Origin: Kaistia sp. 32K
Lineage (GTDB): Bacteria; Pseudomonadota; Alphaproteobacteria; Rhizobiales; Kaistiaceae
NCBI RefSeq assembly: GCF_016629525.1
Contig: NZ_AP024269.1
Span: forward strand, 3,410,001 to 3,474,000
Direction of reading: 5' to 3'
DNA length: 64,000 nucleotides
This document shows positions 1,286 to 43,827 of the stretch, one piece after another. A program made the position numbers and the translations under genes. Each line of letters starts with the position of its first letter. Position 1 is the stretch's first letter. A model generated the notes under the pieces. That model was not told the origin of the DNA. It did not search any database and saw nothing but the letters and a program-made list of their open reading frames with translations.

Positions 1286-1335
1286 GGCGAGGCCGCGGGC
1301 TCCCCGGGGACGCCGCAAGAAGCGTGACTCCGTAA

Positions 1336-1371
1336 AAAAGCCGGCCGCGGTGACGCGGCCGGCTTTTGTCG
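1336..1371. terminator. Bidirectional terminator between HlyU and DUF6600 genes
   Basis: Perfect 14-bp inverted repeat: AAAAGCCGGCCGCG (1336–1349) and its complement (1354–1367), with a GTGA loop. A-tract on one side and T-tract on the other allow termination of the two convergent genes. Confidence 0.92.
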
Positions 1372-1388
1372 TTTGAGACGGAAGCCCC

Positions 1389-3830
1389 TTACTGGGCGCA
1401 GCTTCCATCCGGCTGCACAGCGCCCTCGGGGCAATCGCCGCCACGATGGCGTGGCTGCTCCTCGCGGTGCTGGCGCTGCTCCTGCTGCGGCTCGGGCTTG
1501 CCCTGCTCCTGCTGGGGCTCACGCTCGCGGCGCGGACGCTCCTGCTGTGGCGGCTCCTGCTGCTGACGCTGCTCCTGCTGCGGCTCAGGCTGGCGCTGCT
1601 CCTGCTGGGGCTCACGCTCGCGGCGCGGGCGTTCCTGCTGGGGCTGCTCCTGCTGCCGTTGCTCCTGCTGCTGCGGCGGCTGCTCCTCGCGCTGCCGTTC
1701 CTGGCGACGCTGGCGGGGAGCCTCCTCCTGCTGAGCCGGCGCGGCCGGCTCGACCTGTTCAGCCTGCGGGCGCTTGCGGCGCGGCGGCTCCGCGGGCTCC
1801 TGCGGCTGGGCATCCGGCCGCGACTCGGCGGCCGGCGGCGCTTCCTCGGCAGGCCGCTCCGGACGCTTCTTGCGCGGCGGCTCCGGCTGGGCCTCCGGCT
1901 CCGGCGCAGGCTTCGCCTCAGGAGCAGGCTTGGCTTCGGGTGCCGGCTTGGCTTCGGCCTTCGGCTCACGCGCAGGCTTGGACTCCGGCCTGGCCTCGGG
2001 AGCCGGCTGCTCGACGGCAGGCGCTTCCTCGGCCGGCTTGGCAGGACGATCCCTTCGCGGCTTCGTGGCCGGTTCCGGCTGCGGCTGCGGCTCGGCCGGA
2101 GTCGCTTCCGGCTTGGGCTCGGGCTTGGCCTCCGGCACAGGCTTCGGCTCAGGCTTGGCTTCCGGAGCGGGCTTTGCCTCCGGCGCAGGCTTGGCCTCGG
2201 GAGCGGGCTGCTCGGCGGCGGGCGCCTCCTCGGCCGGCTTGGCCGGACGATCCCTACGCGGCCGCTCGCCCTGCTGGCCGTCCGGCTGCTGGCGATCCGG
2301 ACGCTGGGCTTCCGGCTGGTCCGGCTTCTGGTCGGGACCGCGATCCGGGCGGCTCGGCCGCTCGGGCTGGGCCGGATCCACCGGCGGCGGATTGCCTCCG
2401 GCGGGCGCCGGCGGCTCGGCCGGCTGCGGATTGGCCTCGACCTTCTTCAGCACCTCGTCCGCCCTGGCGGCGCGCTCCTGGCGGATACGCTCCTGTTCGG
2501 CCTGGCGCTGCGCGTCGGCTTTCTTGGTCGCGGCGTCGATCTCGGCGGCGCGGGCGTCCGCCTGCTTGCGCTGCTCGTCGATCAGGCTGGCCTTCTCGGC
2601 CTTCAGCTTGTCGATCTCGGCCTGCATGCGATCGCGCTGCTGCGGCTGGTCGCGATCCCGATCGCGGCGCAGGTCGCGCCGCTCGCCCGGATCGAGCACG
2701 GAGAGCAGCGCCGCCGACACGACGCCGGCAATCGCCGCCTTCGGATCGGGCTCGACATACTGGTGGATCAGCGTGCGGTCGTCGCGCGGCACGTCCCGGT
2801 CGAACCGGTCCGGACGGCGGTCGAAGCGCTGGTCGTCGATGCGCGGGCGGAACACGCCGATCCGGCCGCCGCGATCATCGTCGAAGATGTCGCTCTGCTC
2901 GTCGACATAGACGATCTCGCGGCCGGGACGGTCGCGCCGGCGGACCGGTTCGTTGAAGAAGCGGCCATCCTGGTACTGCGGGCGGCGCACGTCGCGCGCC
3001 TCGCCGAGATAGCGGCCAACGTCGCGCACCGGCGCGGCGCGGCGGCCGATGTCGTCATCGTCGAAATAGCGCTCGTCGACGAACACCCAGCTCTCCGAGA
3101 CCGGCGGATCGTAGCGGCGCGGCTGGCCATACTGGTAGCCGGAACGGTCCGGCGCGATCGGCGCCCAGCCGACCTGGCCGCCACCGACGCGGAACGTGGC
3201 CCAGGCGGGCGACCAGGTGTCGCCGGGAATCCAGTACCAGCCATAGTCGGGGTCATAGTCCCAGCGGCCGTAATGATACGTCGCCCAGCCGAACGGCTCG
3301 CTCGATTCCCAGTACCAGCCGTAATCGTCGGTCCAGGTCCAGCGGCCTTCCTGGAACGGCCGCCAGCCGGCGCCACGGCGCTTCGGCACGAAGACATAGC
3401 CGTAATCGTCATTCTCGACCCAACGGCCATAGGGCTGCAGTTCGTCGAAGAAATAGCCGACATCGCCGGAGGGACGGCTCGCACGGGGCCGGCTGGAGAC
3501 GGGCTGCGGACGCGGCCGGGAGGTCTGCACCTGCTGCGCGGGGCGCGGGCGCGGCGTCGGCGGCACGACCTCGGCGGCGGCGACCTGCGTCGGCCGCGAG
3601 GGCTGCGCCGGCTGCGACGCGCTCGAACCATCGGTCTCGGCCGCCTGGTCGTAATCGTCCATGTCGGTGCTATTGGCCGGCGGCTCCTGCTCGCTTCCCT
3701 CGGAAACGGCGGGCGCCTTCGGCTTGAGCTCGAGCTTGTACGGAACCTCGACGACGCCGGTCACGACGGCGGCTCCCGCCACCACCACGCCGCCCGCCAG
3801 AGCCGCTCCGATCAGACCCAGAAATTTCAT
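1389..3830 (-). CDS. Large DUF6600-domain envelope protein with Pro/Glu/Gln/Arg-rich tail
   Basis: 813 residues from ATG at 3830, preceded by GGGAAGG; a GTG six bases upstream is possible but poorly spaced. Order of parts: an N-terminal hydrophobic segment (MKFLGLIGAALAGGVVVAGA), a Pro-rich linker, and an aromatic DUF6600-type domain near residues 120–270 with tandem Tyr/Trp motifs (YGRWVENDDYGYVFVP, DDYGWYWESSEPFGW, DYGWYWIPGDTWSPAW). A weak hydrophobic stretch and a coiled coil follow (residues about 390–460, from MQAEIDKLKAEKASLI). About 330 residues of EAPAAEQPAPEAKP-type and QERPRREREPQQEQ-type repeats complete the protein, ending DGSCAQ. It is probably periplasmic and envelope-anchored; the function is unknown. 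The repeats are present at DNA level, suggesting expansion by slippage or recombination. Confidence 0.85.
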   Translation of the reverse strand: MKFLGLIGAALAGGVVVAGAAVVTGVVEVPYKLELKPKAPAVSEGSEQEPPANSTDMDDYDQAAETDGSSASQPAQPSRPTQVAAAEVVPPTPRPRPAQQVQTSRPRPQPVSSRPRASRPSGDVGYFFDELQPYGRWVENDDYGYVFVPKRRGAGWRPFQEGRWTWTDDYGWYWESSEPFGWATYHYGRWDYDPDYGWYWIPGDTWSPAWATFRVGGGQVGWAPIAPDRSGYQYGQPRRYDPPVSESWVFVDERYFDDDDIGRRAAPVRDVGRYLGEARDVRRPQYQDGRFFNEPVRRRDRPGREIVYVDEQSDIFDDDRGGRIGVFRPRIDDQRFDRRPDRFDRDVPRDDRTLIHQYVEPDPKAAIAGVVSAALLSVLDPGERRDLRRDRDRDQPQQRDRMQAEIDKLKAEKASLIDEQRKQADARAAEIDAATKKADAQRQAEQERIRQERAARADEVLKKVEANPQPAEPPAPAGGNPPPVDPAQPERPSRPDRGPDQKPDQPEAQRPDRQQPDGQQGERPRRDRPAKPAEEAPAAEQPAPEAKPAPEAKPAPEAKPEPKPVPEAKPEPKPEATPAEPQPQPEPATKPRRDRPAKPAEEAPAVEQPAPEARPESKPAREPKAEAKPAPEAKPAPEAKPAPEPEAQPEPPRKKRPERPAEEAPPAAESRPDAQPQEPAEPPRRKRPQAEQVEPAAPAQQEEAPRQRRQERQREEQPPQQQEQRQQEQPQQERPRREREPQQEQRQPEPQQEQRQQQEPPQQERPRREREPQQEQGKPEPQQEQRQHREEQPRHRGGDCPEGAVQPDGSCAQ
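1455..1690 (-). repeat. 93-bp tandem repeat inside the DUF6600 gene
   Basis: Two adjacent near-copies are offset by exactly 93 bases (31 codons); for example CTGCTCCTGCTGGGGCTCAC occurs at 1503 and again at 1596. The period is a multiple of three, so the frame is kept. The coded unit includes QQERPRREREPQQEQ followed by PEPQQEQRQ. Confidence 0.8.
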
Positions 3831-12741: not shown

Positions 12742-13725
12742 ATGTCTGGCCCCATCATGCAGCACGCCAAGCTCATCATTGTCGGATCCGGTCCTGCCGG
12801 CTACACCGCCGCCATCTATGCCGCGCGCGCCATGCTGGAACCGATGCTGATCGCCGGTGTCCAGCCGGGCGGCCAGCTCACCATCACCACGGATGTCGAG
12901 AACTATCCGGGCTTCGCCGACGTCATCCAGGGCCCCTGGCTTATGGAGCAGATGCGCGCCCAGGCCGAGCATGTCGGCACCAAGATGGTCTCCGACCACA
13001 TCGTCGAGGCCGACCTGTCGCAGCGCCCCTTCATCCTCAAGGGTGATTCCGGCGAGATCTACGCCGCCGACACGCTGGTGATCGCCACCGGCGCGCAGGC
13101 GAAATGGCTCGGCATCGACAGCGAGCAGAAATTCAAGGGCTTCGGCGTCTCCGCCTGCGCCACCTGCGACGGCTTCTTCTACCGCGACAAGGAAGTCTTC
13201 GTCGTCGGCGGCGGCAACACGGCCGTCGAGGAGGCGCTCTATCTGGCGCACATCGCCAAGAAGGTGACCGTCGTCCATCGCCGCGATCATTTCCGCGCCG
13301 AGCGCATCCTGCAGAACCGCCTGTTCGGCCTCGACAATGTCGAGGTGGTCTGGGACACGGTCGTCGACGAGGTGCTGGGCAAGACCGGCTTCCCGCCTTC
13401 GGTGACGGGCGTGCGGCTGCGCAATGTCGTGACCGGCGCGGTCAGCGAGCGCGAGACGCATGGTGTGTTCGTGGCGATCGGCCACGCGCCGGCGGTCGAG
13501 ATCGTCAAGGGCCAGCTCGACCTGAAGCCTTCCGGCTACATCTGGACGGCGCCCGATTCGACGGCGACCAGCGTTCCCGGCGTGTTCGCGGCGGGCGACG
13601 TCACCGACGAGACGTTCCGGCAGGCCGTCACGGCCGCCGGTCAGGGCTGCATGGCAGCGCTCGAAGCCGAGCGCTGGCTGGCGATCAATCCGGTTGTGAC
13701 CGAGGCCGCAGCCGCAGCCGAATAA
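12742..13725 (+). CDS. trxB: Thioredoxin-disulfide reductase
   Basis: NADPH-dependent flavoenzyme that reduces thioredoxin in the cytoplasm. 327 residues: FAD-binding GSGPAGYTAAIYAAR near the N-terminus, redox pair CATC (Cys139, Cys142) in SACATCDGFFYR, NADPH-binding GGGNTAVEEALYL, and C-terminal FAD site GVFAAGDVTDETFRQAVTAAG. ATG 12757 is an alternative start five codons in; neither has a clear Shine-Dalgarno. It reads divergently from the Lrp gene across a 250-bp control region and is followed by the LsrB-type regulator after 46 bases. Confidence 0.97.
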   Translation: MSGPIMQHAKLIIVGSGPAGYTAAIYAARAMLEPMLIAGVQPGGQLTITTDVENYPGFADVIQGPWLMEQMRAQAEHVGTKMVSDHIVEADLSQRPFILKGDSGEIYAADTLVIATGAQAKWLGIDSEQKFKGFGVSACATCDGFFYRDKEVFVVGGGNTAVEEALYLAHIAKKVTVVHRRDHFRAERILQNRLFGLDNVEVVWDTVVDEVLGKTGFPPSVTGVRLRNVVTGAVSERETHGVFVAIGHAPAVEIVKGQLDLKPSGYIWTAPDSTATSVPGVFAAGDVTDETFRQAVTAAGQGCMAALEAERWLAINPVVTEAAAAAE

Positions 13726-13771
13726 CGAGACTACAAAAAAAGGCTGGTGCTACGGAGGGGGCTGTCCAACC

Positions 13772-14662
13772 ATGGACTGGGACAAACTGAGGATTTTTCA
13801 TGCCGCCGCGCAGGCCGGCTCGTTCACCCACGCCGGCGAGGCGCTGGGCATGAGCCAGTCTGCCGTCAGCCGCCAGGTCGGCGCGCTGGAAAGCGATCTC
13901 GGCGTCCCGCTCTTCCATCGCCATGCCCGCGGACTGATTCTGTCCGAGCAGGGCGAGCTGCTGTACCGCACGTCGCAGGACGTGATGCAGAAGCTCGAGG
14001 GCGTGAAGATCCGGCTGACCGATTCGCGCGAGAAGCCGACCGGCACGCTGCGCATCACCACGACGGTGGCGCTCGGCTCGACCTGGCTGACCCAGCGCAT
14101 CAACGAATTCGTCGACCTGCATCCGGATTTGAACCTGCACCTGATTCTCGACGATCAGGAGCTGGACCTGACCATGCGCCAGGCCGACGTGGCGATCCGC
14201 CTGCGCCAGCCGGTGCAGCCGGACCTGATCCAGCGCCGCCTGTTCACCGCGCACTATCACGTCTACGCGGCGCCCTCCTATGTCGAGCGCTTCGGCAAGC
14301 CGGAGACGCTGGATGACCTCGATCACCACCGCATCGTCACCTTCGGCGTGCCCGTGCCGCCGAACATCCGCGACGTGAACTGGCTCGAGATCGCCGGCCG
14401 CTCGACCGACAATCCGCGCGAGCCGATCGTGCGCATCAACAACATCTACGCCATCAAGGCGGCGGTCGAGCGCGGGACAGGCATCGCCATCCTGCCCGAC
14501 TACATGCTGGAAGAAGGCTCGACGCTGGTGAAGCTGATGCCGGAAGCGCAGGTGCCGAGCTTCCCGACCTATTTCTGCTACCCTTCCGAGCTCAAGAATT
14601 CCGCCCGCGTGACCGCTTTCCGCGATTTCATGCTCGCCAAGGCGCAGAACTGGCAGTTCTGA
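13772..14662 (+). CDS. lsrB: LysR-family regulator, LsrB/VtlR type
   Basis: 296 residues. Winged helix at residues 1–60 (MDWDKLRIFHAAAQAGSFTH, then MSQSAVSRQVGALE) and a periplasmic-binding-like effector domain. Identity as LsrB/VtlR rests on position, directly after trxB and the Lrp gene as in Sinorhizobium, Agrobacterium and Brucella; those orthologues affect redox balance, envelope and host interaction, and VtlR activates the AbcR2 small RNA. GGAGG lies before ATG. The next feature downstream here is an AbcR-like RNA, which fits that regulatory link. Confidence 0.88.
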   Translation: MDWDKLRIFHAAAQAGSFTHAGEALGMSQSAVSRQVGALESDLGVPLFHRHARGLILSEQGELLYRTSQDVMQKLEGVKIRLTDSREKPTGTLRITTTVALGSTWLTQRINEFVDLHPDLNLHLILDDQELDLTMRQADVAIRLRQPVQPDLIQRRLFTAHYHVYAAPSYVERFGKPETLDDLDHHRIVTFGVPVPPNIRDVNWLEIAGRSTDNPREPIVRINNIYAIKAAVERGTGIAILPDYMLEEGSTLVKLMPEAQVPSFPTYFCYPSELKNSARVTAFRDFMLAKAQNWQF

Positions 14663-14765
14663 TCGCGCCGTGCCGCGATACAAGGCACAGGAATGTGACA
14701 TGATCGACCGCTGCATCCCGGCGGTTTCGGTACCATTCCAGAATCATGGCAAATCCAGAAAATTC

Positions 14766-14785
14766 ATTCCCGGATTTCCGGGAAT
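14766..14785. promoter_or_regulatory. Perfect palindrome between lsrB and the small RNA
   Basis: Arms ATTCCCGGA (14766–14774) and TCCGGGAAT (14777–14785) are separated by TT. The right arm is part of GGGAATGTGAC, and a second GGAATGTGAC lies at about 14691. There is no T-tract, so an operator or a weak terminator of lsrB are both possible. Confidence 0.45.
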
Positions 14786-14873
14786 GTGACGCCAAATTCA
14801 GAGCAATTCCGAGCCATGCGAAATCCTGATTGCGTCATATCAAATTTGCATAGCAGAAATGCACCCCTGCCGG

Positions 14874-14902
14874 TTGATTGGGCAGCCTGACCAATCCATA
14901 TA
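14874..14902 (+). promoter_or_regulatory. Sigma-70-type promoter of the AbcR-like RNA
   Basis: TTGATT at 14874–14879 and CATATA at 14897–14902 are separated by 17 bases, the optimal spacing. Transcription would begin near 14908, exactly at the first stem of the predicted RNA. Confidence 0.6.
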
Positions 14903-14907
14903 CGTAA

Positions 14908-15056
14908 TCAGTTGATGCGTTGGGCCTCTCGCTCCCTCCTCCCTGCGATGGGTTCGACCTCAGCTGTTCCCCTCTGGAAGGTGTTTGCTGCGCATTTCCC
15001 TGCCGCAGCAACAAAGACTTAGCCGGGCCTCGCAAGAGTGCCCGGCCTTTTCTTTT
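14908..15056 (+). ncRNA. Putative AbcR (alpha-r15)-type trans-acting small RNA
   Basis: About 149 nucleotides with three predicted hairpins. The first is closed by CAGTTGA (14909–14915) pairing with TCAGCTG (14960–14966) and exposes CTCCCTCCTCCC, an anti-Shine-Dalgarno-like stretch. The second is a perfect 8-bp stem TTGCTGCG/CGCAGCAA (14985–15011) with CATTTCCCTGC in the loop. The third is a terminator, GCCGGGC/GCCCGGC (15022–15046), followed by CTTTTCTTTT. A second pyrimidine run, TTCCCCTCT, links the first two. AbcR RNAs of rhizobia and Brucella silence ABC-transporter mRNAs through such motifs with Hfq, and lie near lsrB/vtlR. Family assignment is inferred from synteny and architecture, not alignment. 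Confidence 0.6.
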
Positions 15057-15113
15057 GTAAAGCATTTTACCAACGGCGACGCCGACGCGGCTCTGCTTAA
15101 AAAACAGGCGTGC

Positions 15114-16070
15114 CTACATGAAGAGCGGCTGGCTCTCCATCCCCTTGTACAGCCCGGCGACGAACTCTCCGTAGCCATTGTAGATCCGAGTCGGGATGCG
15201 CTCGCGGGTGCCGATGACGGTCTCGGACGCCTGGCTCCAGCGCGGATGCGGCACGTCCGGGTTCACATTCGCCCAGAAGCCGTATTCGGACGCCTGCAGC
15301 TGCTGCCAGAAATTCGCCGGCTGCTCCTCGACGAAGCTCACCTTGACGATCGACTTGATCGATTTGAAACCGTATTTCCACGGCGTGTGCAGGCGGATCG
15401 GCGCGCCCATCTGCTTCAAGAGCGGCTTGCCGTAGACGCCGGTCACCATGAAGGCGAGCTCGTTGTTGGCCTCGGCCATGGAGAGCCCCTCGACATAGGG
15501 CCAGGGGTAGAAGGGCTGGTTCTGGCCCGGCGCCATGGCCGGATCGAGGAACGTCTCCATGCGGATGTATTTCGCGCCCGAGAGCGGCTTCGCATAGGCG
15601 ACGAGATCGGCGAGCGGAAAGCCCGTCCACGGCACCGTCATCGACCAGGCCTCGACGCAGCGATGGCGATAGACCCGCTCCTCGAGCTTCATCGCCTTCA
15701 GGAGACCGTCGATGTCGACCGTCTTCTCCTTCTCGACCAGGCCGCCGAACTGGATCGTCCAGGGCCGCACCTTCAGTGCCTGGGCCGCGTCCGCGAGCTC
15801 CTTGTCGGTGCTGTATTCGTAGAAGTTGTTGTAGTGGGCGTTGATCTCTTCCGGCGTGATGTCGCGCTCGATCGTGTAGCGCGGATTGCGCTTGGCGGGA
15901 TAAAGCCCTGAACTCGGATCCTCGTCGGCGGCGCGCGCGAAACGCGGCAGGGCGGCGGCCGCCAGCCCGAGCCCGCTGGCGGCGAGAATCTCGCGGCGAT
16001 TGAGAAACACCGCCTCCGGGGTGGCGCTGCTTTCAGGTATCTCCCAGCCACGTTTGCGGCGAATGAGCAT
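15114..16070 (-). CDS. msrP: Protein-methionine-sulfoxide reductase catalytic subunit MsrP (YedY)
   Basis: Periplasmic molybdoenzyme that repairs oxidised methionines. 318 residues from ATG 16070 (GGAG six bases upstream). Twin-arginine signal with NRREILAASG (Arg25, Arg26) and a hydrophobic stretch ending LPRFARAA. The molybdenum-ligating cysteine is Cys138 in YRHRCVEAWSM; further SUOX-like motifs are KYIRMETFLDP and HTPWKYGFKSIKS. Its usual haem partner MsrQ is not adjacent; the electron donor must be encoded elsewhere. The gene converges on the AbcR-like RNA. Confidence 0.95.
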   Translation of the reverse strand: MLIRRKRGWEIPESSATPEAVFLNRREILAASGLGLAAAALPRFARAADEDPSSGLYPAKRNPRYTIERDITPEEINAHYNNFYEYSTDKELADAAQALKVRPWTIQFGGLVEKEKTVDIDGLLKAMKLEERVYRHRCVEAWSMTVPWTGFPLADLVAYAKPLSGAKYIRMETFLDPAMAPGQNQPFYPWPYVEGLSMAEANNELAFMVTGVYGKPLLKQMGAPIRLHTPWKYGFKSIKSIVKVSFVEEQPANFWQQLQASEYGFWANVNPDVPHPRWSQASETVIGTRERIPTRIYNGYGEFVAGLYKGMESQPLFM

Positions 16071-34283: not shown

Positions 34284-35024
34284 TCAGGCGCGCTCGAGCG
34301 CGCCGGTGATCAAGGCCGTCACTTCTTCCGGCGAACTGCGGGCGATGTCCTTGTCGGCCACCTTGGTGCCGCGACGCAGAACGACGATCTTGTCGCAGAC
34401 CGAGAAGACGTCCGGCATGCGGTGGCTGATCAGGATCACGGCGATGCCCTGGTCGCGCAGCCGGCGGATGAGGTTGAGCACCTCGGCCACCTGGCGCACG
34501 CTGATCGCAGCCGTCGGCTCGTCCATCAGCACGATCTTCGAATCGGACAGGCGCGTCCGCGCGATCGCCACGGCCTGGCGCTGGCCGCCGGACATCTGCT
34601 TGACGAGATCGCGCGGCCGCGTCTCTGACTTCAGCTCCTTGAAGAGCTCGCCGGCGCGCTTGTACATCGTCGCATAGTCGAGAATGCGCAGCGGCCAGAC
34701 CCCGCGCCGGAGCTCGCGGCCCAGGAACACGTTGGCGGCGGCGGTCAGATTGTTGCAGAGCGCGAGGTCCTGGTAGACGACCTCGATGCCGCTCTCGCGC
34801 GCCTCGACCGGCTTGTGGAAATGTACCTCGCGGTCCTGCACCCGGATCGTGCCGTGCGAGGGCGGAAAGTTGCCGGCGATGATCTTCACCAGCGTCGACT
34901 TGCCGGCGCCATTGTCGCCCATCAGGCCGACCACCGCACCCGGCTCGATCGTGAGCGAGACGTCGTTCAGGGCCTGAATCGCCCCGAAATGCTTAGAAAT
35001 ACCTTTGAGTTCCAGGACGGTCAT
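34284..35024 (-). CDS. Sugar ABC transporter ATP-binding protein, single-domain
   Basis: 246 residues from ATG 35024 (GGAGG about nine bases upstream). Walker A GDNGAGKST, Q-loop VVYQDLALC, signature MSGGQRQAVAIAR, Walker B IVLMDEPTAAI and the switch His in ILISHRMPD. Most CUT2 importers use a fused double ATPase; this one has a single nucleotide-binding domain and probably acts as a homodimer, like FrcA of Sinorhizobium. Operonic with the permease gene. Confidence 0.92.
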   Translation of the reverse strand: MTVLELKGISKHFGAIQALNDVSLTIEPGAVVGLMGDNGAGKSTLVKIIAGNFPPSHGTIRVQDREVHFHKPVEARESGIEVVYQDLALCNNLTAAANVFLGRELRRGVWPLRILDYATMYKRAGELFKELKSETRPRDLVKQMSGGQRQAVAIARTRLSDSKIVLMDEPTAAISVRQVAEVLNLIRRLRDQGIAVILISHRMPDVFSVCDKIVVLRRGTKVADKDIARSSPEEVTALITGALERA

Positions 35025-35496: not shown

Positions 35497-36486
35497 ATGA
35501 AGAAAGCTTTGGCAATACTTTCGTTTGCCACCACCGCGCTGGCGCTGACGATCGGCGCGGCGAAGGCCGAGGACAAGACGCTGGCGATCGTCGTGAAGGG
35601 CCTCGACAACCCCTTCTTCGAAGAGATCAACAAGGGCTGCCAGAAGTGGAACGCCGAGAACAAGGGCAAGGGATATACTTGCCTCTATACTGGCCCGGCC
35701 TCCAGCAACGATGAAGCCGGCGAAGTCCAGATCGTCGACGATCTGCTGACCAAGGGCGTCGCCGCCATCGCCATCTCGCCGTCCAACGCCCCGGCCATGG
35801 CCAACCTTCTGAAGCAGCGCGCCCCGACGATCCCGGTGATGACGGTCGACGCCGACCTGAACGCCGAGGATTCCGCCCTTCGCAAGGCCTATCTCGGTAC
35901 CGACAACTACCTGATGGGCGTCAAGATGGGCGAAGAGCTGCAGAAGCTGAAGAAGGGCGGCACCGTCTGCCTTCAGCTCGGCAACGTCGCCGCGGCCAAC
36001 ATCGCCGCCCGCGCCGCCGGCGTGCGCGACACGCTCTCCGGCGCCAAGGGCACCGACAAGCTGACGGGCCAGAACGGCTGGACGGAACCGGCGGGCTGCC
36101 CGCTGTTCACCAACGACCAGTCGGACCTCGCCAACCAGCAGATGAGCGATACCTTCACCGCCAATCCGAAGCTCGACGCCTTCGTGCTCGTGGGCGGCTG
36201 GGCCCAGTTCGCCCCGCAGGCCTATGCGCAGGTCACCGACGGCGTCATGGATCGCCTGAAGAGCAAGGACCTCGTGATCATCGCCGGCGACACGCTGCCG
36301 CCGCAGATCGACGCCCTCAAGGCCGGCCGCAGCCATGCGCAGATCGGCCAGCGTCCGTTCGAGATGGGCTACAAGGCTCCCGACGCCATGATCAAGCTGA
36401 TCAACGGCGAGAAGGTTGACGAGATCCTGTTCACGGGCCTCGACACCTGCCTGCCTGACAACGCCGACAACTGCCTGGCCAAGTAA
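35497..36486 (+). CDS. Sugar ABC transporter periplasmic binding protein
   Basis: 329 residues from ATG 35497 (GGGAGGA six bases upstream). Signal peptide ALAILSFATTALALTIGAAKA; the mature protein is a type I periplasmic-binding fold (LAIVVKGLDNPFFEEINKG, VAAIAISPSNAPAM, TIPVMTVDADLN, VLVGGWAQF, GQRPFEMGYKA). Several cysteines are present (KGCQKW, YTCLY, TVCLQ, AGCPL, and two near the C-terminus), more than usual, perhaps as disulfides. Divergent from its permease/ATPase genes. Confidence 0.92.
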   Translation: MKKALAILSFATTALALTIGAAKAEDKTLAIVVKGLDNPFFEEINKGCQKWNAENKGKGYTCLYTGPASSNDEAGEVQIVDDLLTKGVAAIAISPSNAPAMANLLKQRAPTIPVMTVDADLNAEDSALRKAYLGTDNYLMGVKMGEELQKLKKGGTVCLQLGNVAAANIAARAAGVRDTLSGAKGTDKLTGQNGWTEPAGCPLFTNDQSDLANQQMSDTFTANPKLDAFVLVGGWAQFAPQAYAQVTDGVMDRLKSKDLVIIAGDTLPPQIDALKAGRSHAQIGQRPFEMGYKAPDAMIKLINGEKVDEILFTGLDTCLPDNADNCLAK

Positions 36487-43023: not shown

Positions 43024-43827
43024 CTATTTTGCGAGAATGGTGAACCCCTGCCCCTCGAAGCTCGGGCGAGCCTCCGGCGAGATCAGCCATTCGAGAAACG
43101 CCTTCGCGTCGGCATTGTTCGACGCGGCGATGCGGGCGACAGGGTAGACGATCGGGGGATGGCTGTCCTCCGGGAAGGTCCCGACGACCTTGACGCCGGC
43201 CTCGGCATGGGCGTCGGTGCCGTAGACGATGCCGAGCGGGGCCTCGCCCTTGGCGACGAAGGCGAGCGCGCCACGGACATTGTCCGCCTGCGCGACATGC
43301 GGCTGGACCGCGTCCCAGACGCCGAGCGCCGTCAGCGCCGCCTTGCCGTATTTGCCGGCCGGCACGGAATCGATGCTGGCCATGGCGAGCTTGCCGTCAG
43401 AGCCGAGGGCGGCGGCGATCGGAAAATCCTTGGCGATGGTCAGGTCGACGGTCGCGTCCTTCGGCGCCACCAGCACCAGCGTGTTGCCGAGCAGGGTGAC
43501 GCGCGACGAGGCGTCGATCAGGTCCTTCTTGGCGAGATAGTCCATCCAGTCGAGATCGGCGGAGAAGAAGATGTCGGCCGGCGCGCCGGATTCGATCTGC
43601 TTGGCGAGCTGCGACGAGCCGGCATAGCTGATGGCGAGCTCCTTGCCGGTCTTCTCCTTGTAGGCGGCCGCGGCGCCGTCGAGCGCATTCTTCAGGCTGG
43701 CGGCCGCGAAGACGGTGACGTCGGCGGCCTGTGCCGTCGACGCGGCCAGCGGTCCGACGAACGGGGTGGCCAGAACAGCCAGGGCGCCGAGCAGGACAAG
43801 TCCGCGCCGGAAACGGTTGATCGACAT
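43024..43827 (-). CDS. modA: Molybdate ABC transporter periplasmic binding protein
   Basis: 267 residues from ATG 43827 (GGAG seven bases upstream). Signal peptide RRGLVLLGALAVLATPFVGP ending TAQA. Ligand-binding motifs VTVFAAASLKNALDGAAAAY, ISYAGSSQLAKQIESGAPAD (the Ser ligands of molybdate) and TDAHAEAGVKVVGTFPEDSH, where the conserved Asp/Tyr region of ModA lies. First gene of the operon, with a palindromic Mo-box candidate 20 bases upstream. Confidence 0.96.
   Translation of the reverse strand: MSINRFRRGLVLLGALAVLATPFVGPLAASTAQAADVTVFAAASLKNALDGAAAAYKEKTGKELAISYAGSSQLAKQIESGAPADIFFSADLDWMDYLAKKDLIDASSRVTLLGNTLVLVAPKDATVDLTIAKDFPIAAALGSDGKLAMASIDSVPAGKYGKAALTALGVWDAVQPHVAQADNVRGALAFVAKGEAPLGIVYGTDAHAEAGVKVVGTFPEDSHPPIVYPVARIAASNNADAKAFLEWLISPEARPSFEGQGFTILAK

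Follow-up and report, generated by a model that had tools for sequence, protein, structure and literature searches.

A probable single-copy AbcR-type small RNA gene downstream of lsrB in the genome of Kaistia sp. 32K

The genome of Kaistia sp. 32K is a single contig of 5.35 Mb, of which bases 3410001-3474000 were analysed as one stretch of 64,000 nucleotides (the window, within which positions are counted here). On sequence comparison, the genome is that of a Kaistia, order Hyphomicrobiales: the LsrB protein of the window shares 99% identity with the one from Kaistia adipata DSM 17808 and 93-96% with those of three other named Kaistia, and the small RNA (sRNA) locus is 98% identical to its counterpart in another Kaistia genome. 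The sRNA gene sits between lsrB (13772-14662, plus strand) and msrP (15114-16070, minus strand) and is separated from the 3' end of lsrB, on the same strand, by 245 bases; a preliminary description of this DNA had placed an sRNA in this gap between lsrB and msrP, and both flanking genes are confirmed and convergent. Upstream of lsrB is trxB (about 12748-13725), the order being the trxB-vtlR-abcR order described in Agrobacterium (PMC7486931). The features of the locus, together with two predicted targets elsewhere in the window, are given below with reference to an alignment (A1) of 14 sequences, 13 of the genus and one of another genus, and to a homology model (R2) for which 14 lsrB-linked RNAs of other families and no Kaistia sequence were used.

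13772..14662, plus strand: lsrB/vtlR orthologue encoding a LysR-type regulator (Pfam HTH_1 and LysR_substrate), probable activator of the sRNA
14847..14863, plus strand: dyad TGCAT-N7-ATGCA containing the LsrB/VtlR box, read from the sequence, the box being conserved in the genus
14873..14901, plus strand: core promoter GTTGAT-N17-CCATAT in the alphaproteobacterial frame, read from the sequence
14908..15056, plus strand: AbcR-type small RNA of 149 nt, its ends predicted from the Rfam match, fold, alignment and R2 match
14909..14966, plus strand: SL1, 5' hairpin whose upper stem varies by paired changes (fold and alignment)
14936..14943, plus strand: seed aSD1, CUCCUCCC, in the SL1 loop; present in 14/14 sequences of A1, unpaired probability 1.00
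14967..14974, plus strand: seed aSD2, UUCCCCUC, in the SL1-SL2 linker; exact in 7/14 sequences of A1, with UUCCCUCU in 7/14
14985..15011, plus strand: SL2, with loop UUUCCC, exceeding the Rfam ar15 consensus length (fold and alignment)
15022..15056, plus strand: SL3, intrinsic terminator with a U-rich tail (fold and alignment)
15114..16070, minus strand: msrP (NF003767, 417.8 bits, cut-off 207), convergent to lsrB and the sRNA
34284..35024, minus strand: predicted target close to the 35497 gene, ABC ATP-binding protein as assigned by eye; leader GGCAGGGAGGAGCGCCGGGAUG, with a start set by the authors; -21.7 kcal/mol with seed 1
35497..36486, plus strand: predicted target, sugar-type binding protein (Peripla_BP_4), leader CUCGGGAGGAGACCAUG, start chosen by the authors; -17.7 kcal/mol with seed 1

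Among the NCBIfam matches listed (25 of 56 families), no model scored above its own cut-off for the LysR-type regulator. The window LsrB is 62-63% identical to the LsrB proteins whose genes immediately precede tandem ar15 RNAs at four loci of the order, which are termed rhizobial-type here because of these tandem pairs. It has just one cysteine (269), as against three or four (140, 232, 240, 269) in each of the rhizobial-type proteins; a redox switch needing two cysteines could not operate in the same way in the window LsrB. A perfect inverted repeat, CATTCCCGG-AAAT-CCGGGAATG, was noted at 14765-14786 between lsrB and the sRNA promoter, with a run of T after it on the minus strand only.

The preliminary description proposed an optimal promoter for the sRNA, consisting of TTGATT (14874-14879), 17 bases and CATATA (14897-14902). 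These elements and their spacing are present, but "optimal" is an overstatement, as an E. coli-type promoter scan of 14600-15150 found no promoter; the core of PabcR1 of S. meliloti is CTTGAC-N17-CTATAT (PMC8844928). Overlooked at first was an LsrB/VtlR box, GCATAGCAGAAAT, at 14848-14860 (-60 to -48 relative to 14908), with one mismatch, A for T, to GCAT-N3-TG-N3-T. In S. meliloti this motif is located at -61 to -49 of PabcR1, LsrB binds the promoter, and truncation short of the motif lowers its activity over 22-fold (PMC8844928); VtlR of A. tumefaciens binds the abcR1 promoter directly (PMC7486931). Among Kaistia promoters, GCATAGC is present in 14/14 and the exact box in 11/14, and the flank diverges.

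Conservation of the box was also followed with a second homology model, R1, built from 11 Kaistia sequences and three more of the family. R1 matched downstream of lsrB, on the lsrB strand, at E <= 0.001 in 27 of 80 lsrB loci of named organisms (one more match, on the opposite strand at the edge of L026, was left uncounted), and in 21 of 74 without six loci of the genus, which are not independent matches because they are the same contigs as R1 training rows under other identifiers. A box within one mismatch, starting at -64 to -57, was found in 21 of the 27 promoters of R1 matches (0.33 expected, given the background of these loci) and in 15 of the 21 without the genus. At each of the four rhizobial-type loci an exact box stands at -59 of the first copy; at three of them the second copy has a box with one mismatch. 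The pattern GCATAGCNGNNNTGCA has only 2 exact places in the 5.35 Mb genome, the other one being inside a coding frame; when one mismatch is allowed, it matches 59 places versus 22 for the reversed pattern, so that near-matches alone are uninformative. The LsrB/VtlR linkage characteristic of AbcR1 is present at the window locus, with the one mismatch in its box, and activation of the sRNA by LsrB is considered likely from these promoter sequences. A 3' untranslated end of the lsrB mRNA or a read-through terminator, with no promoter of its own, would also lie on the same strand 245 bases past lsrB, and a scan shows no same-strand terminator between the two (the same scan missed SL3). This reading is very unlikely, since the conserved box, -35 and -10 elements precede the RNA at nearly fixed spacing while the sequence before the box diverges, the RNA is kept in named relatives though its distance to lsrB varies, and start sites have been mapped for both AbcR1 and AbcR2 in rhizobia (PMC7143759).

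The RNA that would be transcribed from this promoter is predicted to fold into three hairpins and a weak small one over seed 2, at -65.2 kcal/mol (z -4.15; none of 200 shuffles as stable). The three stem-loops of the preliminary description were found in their places, with a fold beyond chance, and the terminator proposed there corresponds to SL3, a hairpin at 15022-15046 followed by CTTTTCTTTT. A simple terminator scanner did not detect SL3, probably because of a one-base bulge in the hairpin. SL2 exceeds the Rfam ar15 consensus, with 39 nt set against 17 positions of the model where the Rfam alignment is hidden. The two pyrimidine-rich anti-Shine-Dalgarno (aSD) stretches had both been called exposed; seed 1 is wholly unpaired, but seed 2 is exposed only in part in the predicted fold (UUCC unpaired 0.17-0.44, CCUC 0.83-1.00). 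The RNA has both structural traits of AbcR RNAs, three hairpins of which the last is an intrinsic terminator, and two aSD seeds, one in the SL1 loop (at 14936) and one in the SL1-SL2 linker (at 14967). AbcR1 and AbcR2 of S. meliloti silence mRNAs through the same aSD1 and aSD2 sequences (PMC8844928), and both of these 8-nt seeds are exact in the window RNA.

With gathering thresholds, no Rfam family matched anywhere in the window. In a permissive scan of the locus, ar15 (RF02345) was the top family, colinear over its full length (model 1-112), with 23 bits and E 0.017 in 551 bases; the covariance model check that had been suggested earlier therefore yielded a full-length ar15 match but a score under the 40-bit gathering score, and standard annotation overlooks the RNA because of this score. 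The gathering score is treated here as an annotation cut-off and not as a defining trait of AbcR. Genome-wide, a terminator at 375378 outscores the window RNA with the ar15 model (24.8 versus 23 bits); at E <= 10, weak matches, none above the cut-off, occur in 12 of 14 control genomes; and 12 named lsrB loci gave just 3 matches at E <= 1, the K. adipata copy being absent from them. The 23-bit match alone is only suggestive. The cut-off was reached in 0/28 genomes of the family and 0/20 other loci of the order that were tested, so the Rfam ar15 family is too narrow for the branch to which the window RNA belongs.

The homology models connect the window RNA to RNAs that Rfam does recognize. Among 297 genomes of the order, R1 matched 105 at E <= 0.01 (48 of 122 genera), of which, counted from the listing, 63 have matches of 45 bits or more and 90 have a single match; the weakest of these matches may be terminators that score by chance. 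In 20 of the 23 best R1 matches outside the genus (L134-L156, which include two R1 training loci), lsrB is upstream within 1.5 kb on the same strand. The four rhizobial-type loci came from the R1 matches, and their tandem ar15 copies, directly downstream of LsrB, are all above the Rfam cut-off (8/8, 77-127 bits); R1 recovers 8/8 of these copies with E 4e-7 to 3.5e-5, and R2 recovers 8/8 with 33-49 bits. When the Kaistia genome was searched with R2, positions 14908-15056 ranked first, with identical ends, at 86.7 bits and E 1.8e-23, a wide gap from the next match at 30.6 bits. The 14 training loci of R2 were picked among R1 matches, so that the model is free of the genus yet dependent on that choice, and E-values from both models are rough and too generous, because the second-best R2 match in the genome, a stretch of repeat and terminator, receives E 4.2e-6. 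The R1 and R2 results indicate common descent with the ar15 RNAs, and homology of the window RNA to ar15/AbcR RNAs is judged nearly certain on comparative grounds. An alignment of rhizobial and other sequences (A4) was discarded as its terminators were misaligned.

Convergence of a different anti-Shine-Dalgarno family (SorX-like, anti-hemB-like or NfeR1) on CU-rich loops would explain the Rfam matches to anti-hemB (18.5 bits, gathering score 49.5) and SorX (16.9 bits, gathering score 46.6), both below cut-off, and the match of SorX to two related loci, again below cut-off. It is less probable still than an lsrB 3' end, since ar15 tops the locus among the models compared (SorX and anti-hemB) with an end-to-end match, and lsrB-linked intermediates connect the window RNA to copies that Rfam calls ar15. 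Two other observations were made in the course of these searches. In Sneathiella (L066 and L076), three weaker R1 matches each (E <= 1) lie consecutively downstream of lsrB, and the one match inspected per locus has two CCUCCC stretches; an independent expansion is possible. In the record NZ_JAIUIE010000003.1 (L005), titled Mesorhizobium sp. BR1-1-16, both lsrB (94%) and the RNA are of the Kaistia type, and the name of the record looks wrong.

By DNA comparison, the locus was matched in 14/14 Kaistia genomes searched (its own included) and in 16/28 genomes of the family. Mean column identity in A1 is 88%, with long invariant blocks falling in seed 2 with its adjoining bases, in SL2 and in the terminator, and the upper stem of SL1 differs among relatives through paired substitutions. 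Pairing holds in 91.7% of the cells of alignment A2, and 9 pairs vary on both sides, in 20 cells, none of these values being equalled in 500 shuffles; slid controls reached at most 6 pairs and 12 cells changed on both sides. The 30 further pair types are unremarkable (32/500 shuffles get there), just 75.2% of cells pair in the upper SL1 helix, and the shuffle and slid controls flatter the structure, which was taken from one of the aligned sequences, all of them relatives. A small protein is the least credible reading of the stretch: frames of 13 to 46 codons begin inside it, as does a 200-codon frame running far beyond, but SL1, seed 2 and SL2 carry single-base indels among relatives, and the conserved blocks track hairpins and loops, with paired changes.

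Multiple copies per genome, as seen for rhizobial AbcR RNAs, were not found in Kaistia sp. 32K, where R1 at E <= 0.01 detects a single copy; such copies are stated for Rhizobiaceae and Brucellaceae only, and the family of Kaistia is outside that statement (PMC3712013). Both seeds are absent from the weaker ar15 and R2 matches inspected in the genome, which are terminators or a repeat; one ar15 match (14.0 bits) and two R2 matches (17.4 and 15.7 bits) were left uninspected. Rejected as second R2 matches (<= 30.6 bits) were three inspected stretches and window positions 1330-1473, all seedless terminators or a repeat. The second-best R2 match in the genome (G000:C1:4586667-4586814) consists of a repeat, whose inverted arms are of the CCCTCTCC type, and a terminator, with the seeds absent. 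Second ar15-like matches in the family were likewise rejected at 12 of 13 loci inspected, where they are terminator hairpins with no exact 8-nt seed (one has UCCUCCC and one UUCCCUC); the thirteenth, L101, is a real homologue from another genus. Five of the ar15-like loci adjoin tRNA-Gly genes (10 of the 13 scanned).

The genome was examined for leaders that might pair with the seeds. Binding-protein genes of four Pfam families gave 156 matches among those listed, of which 131 were taken and 95 kept, 5 being dropped for want of a start and 31 for want of a signal-peptide-like N-terminus. The controls, 392 other genes, came from the window and 30 sampled stretches, with 2 binding-protein genes removed; they still include other transporter genes, among them modA and the ATP-binding gene (34284..35024). 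Starts in both sets alike were chosen by a rule favouring good Shine-Dalgarno sites. The complement of seed 1, GGGAGGA, was found in 31/95 binding-protein leaders versus 7/392 controls (p 4.7e-18), and in 4/140 controls with a hydrophobic N-terminus. This enrichment is only partly specific to the sRNA, because binding proteins have stronger Shine-Dalgarno sites anyway: GGAGG is present in 50/95 of their leaders versus 40/392 controls, and the median 16S pairing is -9.5 versus -6.4. Among GGAGG-bearing leaders, a preceding G occurs in 33/50 for binding proteins versus 14/40 controls (p 0.0055), whereas with a smaller first control set the same test was not significant (26/39 versus 5/13, p 0.10). 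Since the extra 5' G is commoner, binding-protein leaders suit seed 1 beyond plain Shine-Dalgarno strength, though not overwhelmingly. Duplex energy as sole evidence was rejected, because seed 1 after reversal or shuffling is almost unchanged as a CU-rich string and continues to separate binding-protein leaders from others (p 0.0003 and 0.009), and motif counts and the conditional test were therefore used. Seed 2 motifs show no enrichment (GGGGAA, 3/95 versus 9/392; AGGGGA, 5/95 versus 8/392), and its median pairing with binding-protein leaders is stronger.

Three binding-protein genes of the window had been put forward as targets, and they fared unequally when pairing was calculated as duplex energy alone. 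The sugar-type gene at 35497 is strongly predicted, although 9/392 control leaders match or beat its -17.7 kcal/mol. Prediction is moderate for modA (43066-43704) and through seed 2 only (-13.4 kcal/mol; -10.5 with seed 1), and weak for the chvE-type gene (L167, 50276-51112; taken for chvE since, besides the 35497 gene, the window has no further Peripla_BP_4 match), at -10.6 kcal/mol, near the control median of -9.3. The ATP-binding gene near 35497 has the strongest seed 1 pairing of the window leaders in the control set. From the leader motifs, the sRNA probably represses binding-protein mRNAs.

AbcR1 and AbcR2 of S. meliloti, A. tumefaciens and B. abortus have been experimentally characterised (PMC3712013, PMC7143759). 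The window RNA is like AbcR1 of S. meliloti (alpha-r15, RF02345) in its position after lsrB, its three hairpins and its terminator (PMC8844928, PMC3712013), and in having identical aSD1 and aSD2 and an LsrB box about 60 bases upstream (PMC8844928); it differs in its length (149 versus 121 nt), its longer SL2 with the UUUCCC loop, its single copy instead of a tandem pair and its 23 bits in Rfam (cut-off 40). It shares family and seeds with the RpoH1-driven AbcR2 of S. meliloti, but its promoter is on the AbcR1 plan with an LsrB box, and no second copy was found in the genome. The AbcR1/AbcR2-VtlR system of Agrobacterium has, besides the gene order noted above, the VtlR box GCAT-N3-TG-N3-T (PMC7486931), but in Agrobacterium and Brucella there are two copies, and the bacteria studied are host-associated.

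Homology and synteny, together with the two seeds and the box for the activator, support the AbcR identity that the preliminary reading of an AbcR-like sRNA had supposed. Counting against it are the Rfam score below cut-off, the single copy, the box mismatch, and seed 2, some of whose bases pair in the fold and of which half of the aligned sequences have a shorter form. On balance, the locus is very probably a single-copy gene for an AbcR-type trans-acting sRNA with the AbcR1 promoter plan, in identity and in general way of working. LsrB would bind the dyad at -60 and activate the housekeeping promoter; the resulting 149-nt RNA would start at 14908, end at 15056 and probably be stabilised by Hfq, for which the genome has one match. 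The loop seed CUCCUCCC, and secondarily UUCCCCUC, would pair with GGGAGGA-type ribosome-binding sites of ABC-transporter mRNAs and block translation, above all that of periplasmic binding proteins.

The lsrB leader is itself G-rich, with CGGAGGGGGC at 13753-13762, and its predicted pairing with seed 2 is -17.1 kcal/mol. Seed 2 of the window RNA reaches -14 kcal/mol with 9/16 lsrB leaders (that of the window and 15 picked from the 80 loci) and with 36/392 control leaders (window lsrB among them), which is only a hint because the 16 leaders are related and from other genomes. Repression of lsrB by seed 2, as negative feedback in a single-copy LsrB-AbcR module ancestral to the AbcR duplication and the LsrB/RpoH split in rhizobia, is a speculative and rather doubtful extension of the AbcR reading.

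A literature search on Kaistia with sRNA or AbcR found no mention of the genus among the papers listed, and the wider distribution of AbcR may already be in print; the RNA type is known, its Kaistia member, apparently a distant relative of the rhizobial AbcR RNAs, appears to be new, and no priority is claimed. The LsrB-AbcR module would extend past the rhizobia and brucellae in which it has been studied, into branches where the Rfam threshold misses it. Single-copy systems may now be compared with the duplicated ones of host-associated bacteria, and the new model may be used for annotation.
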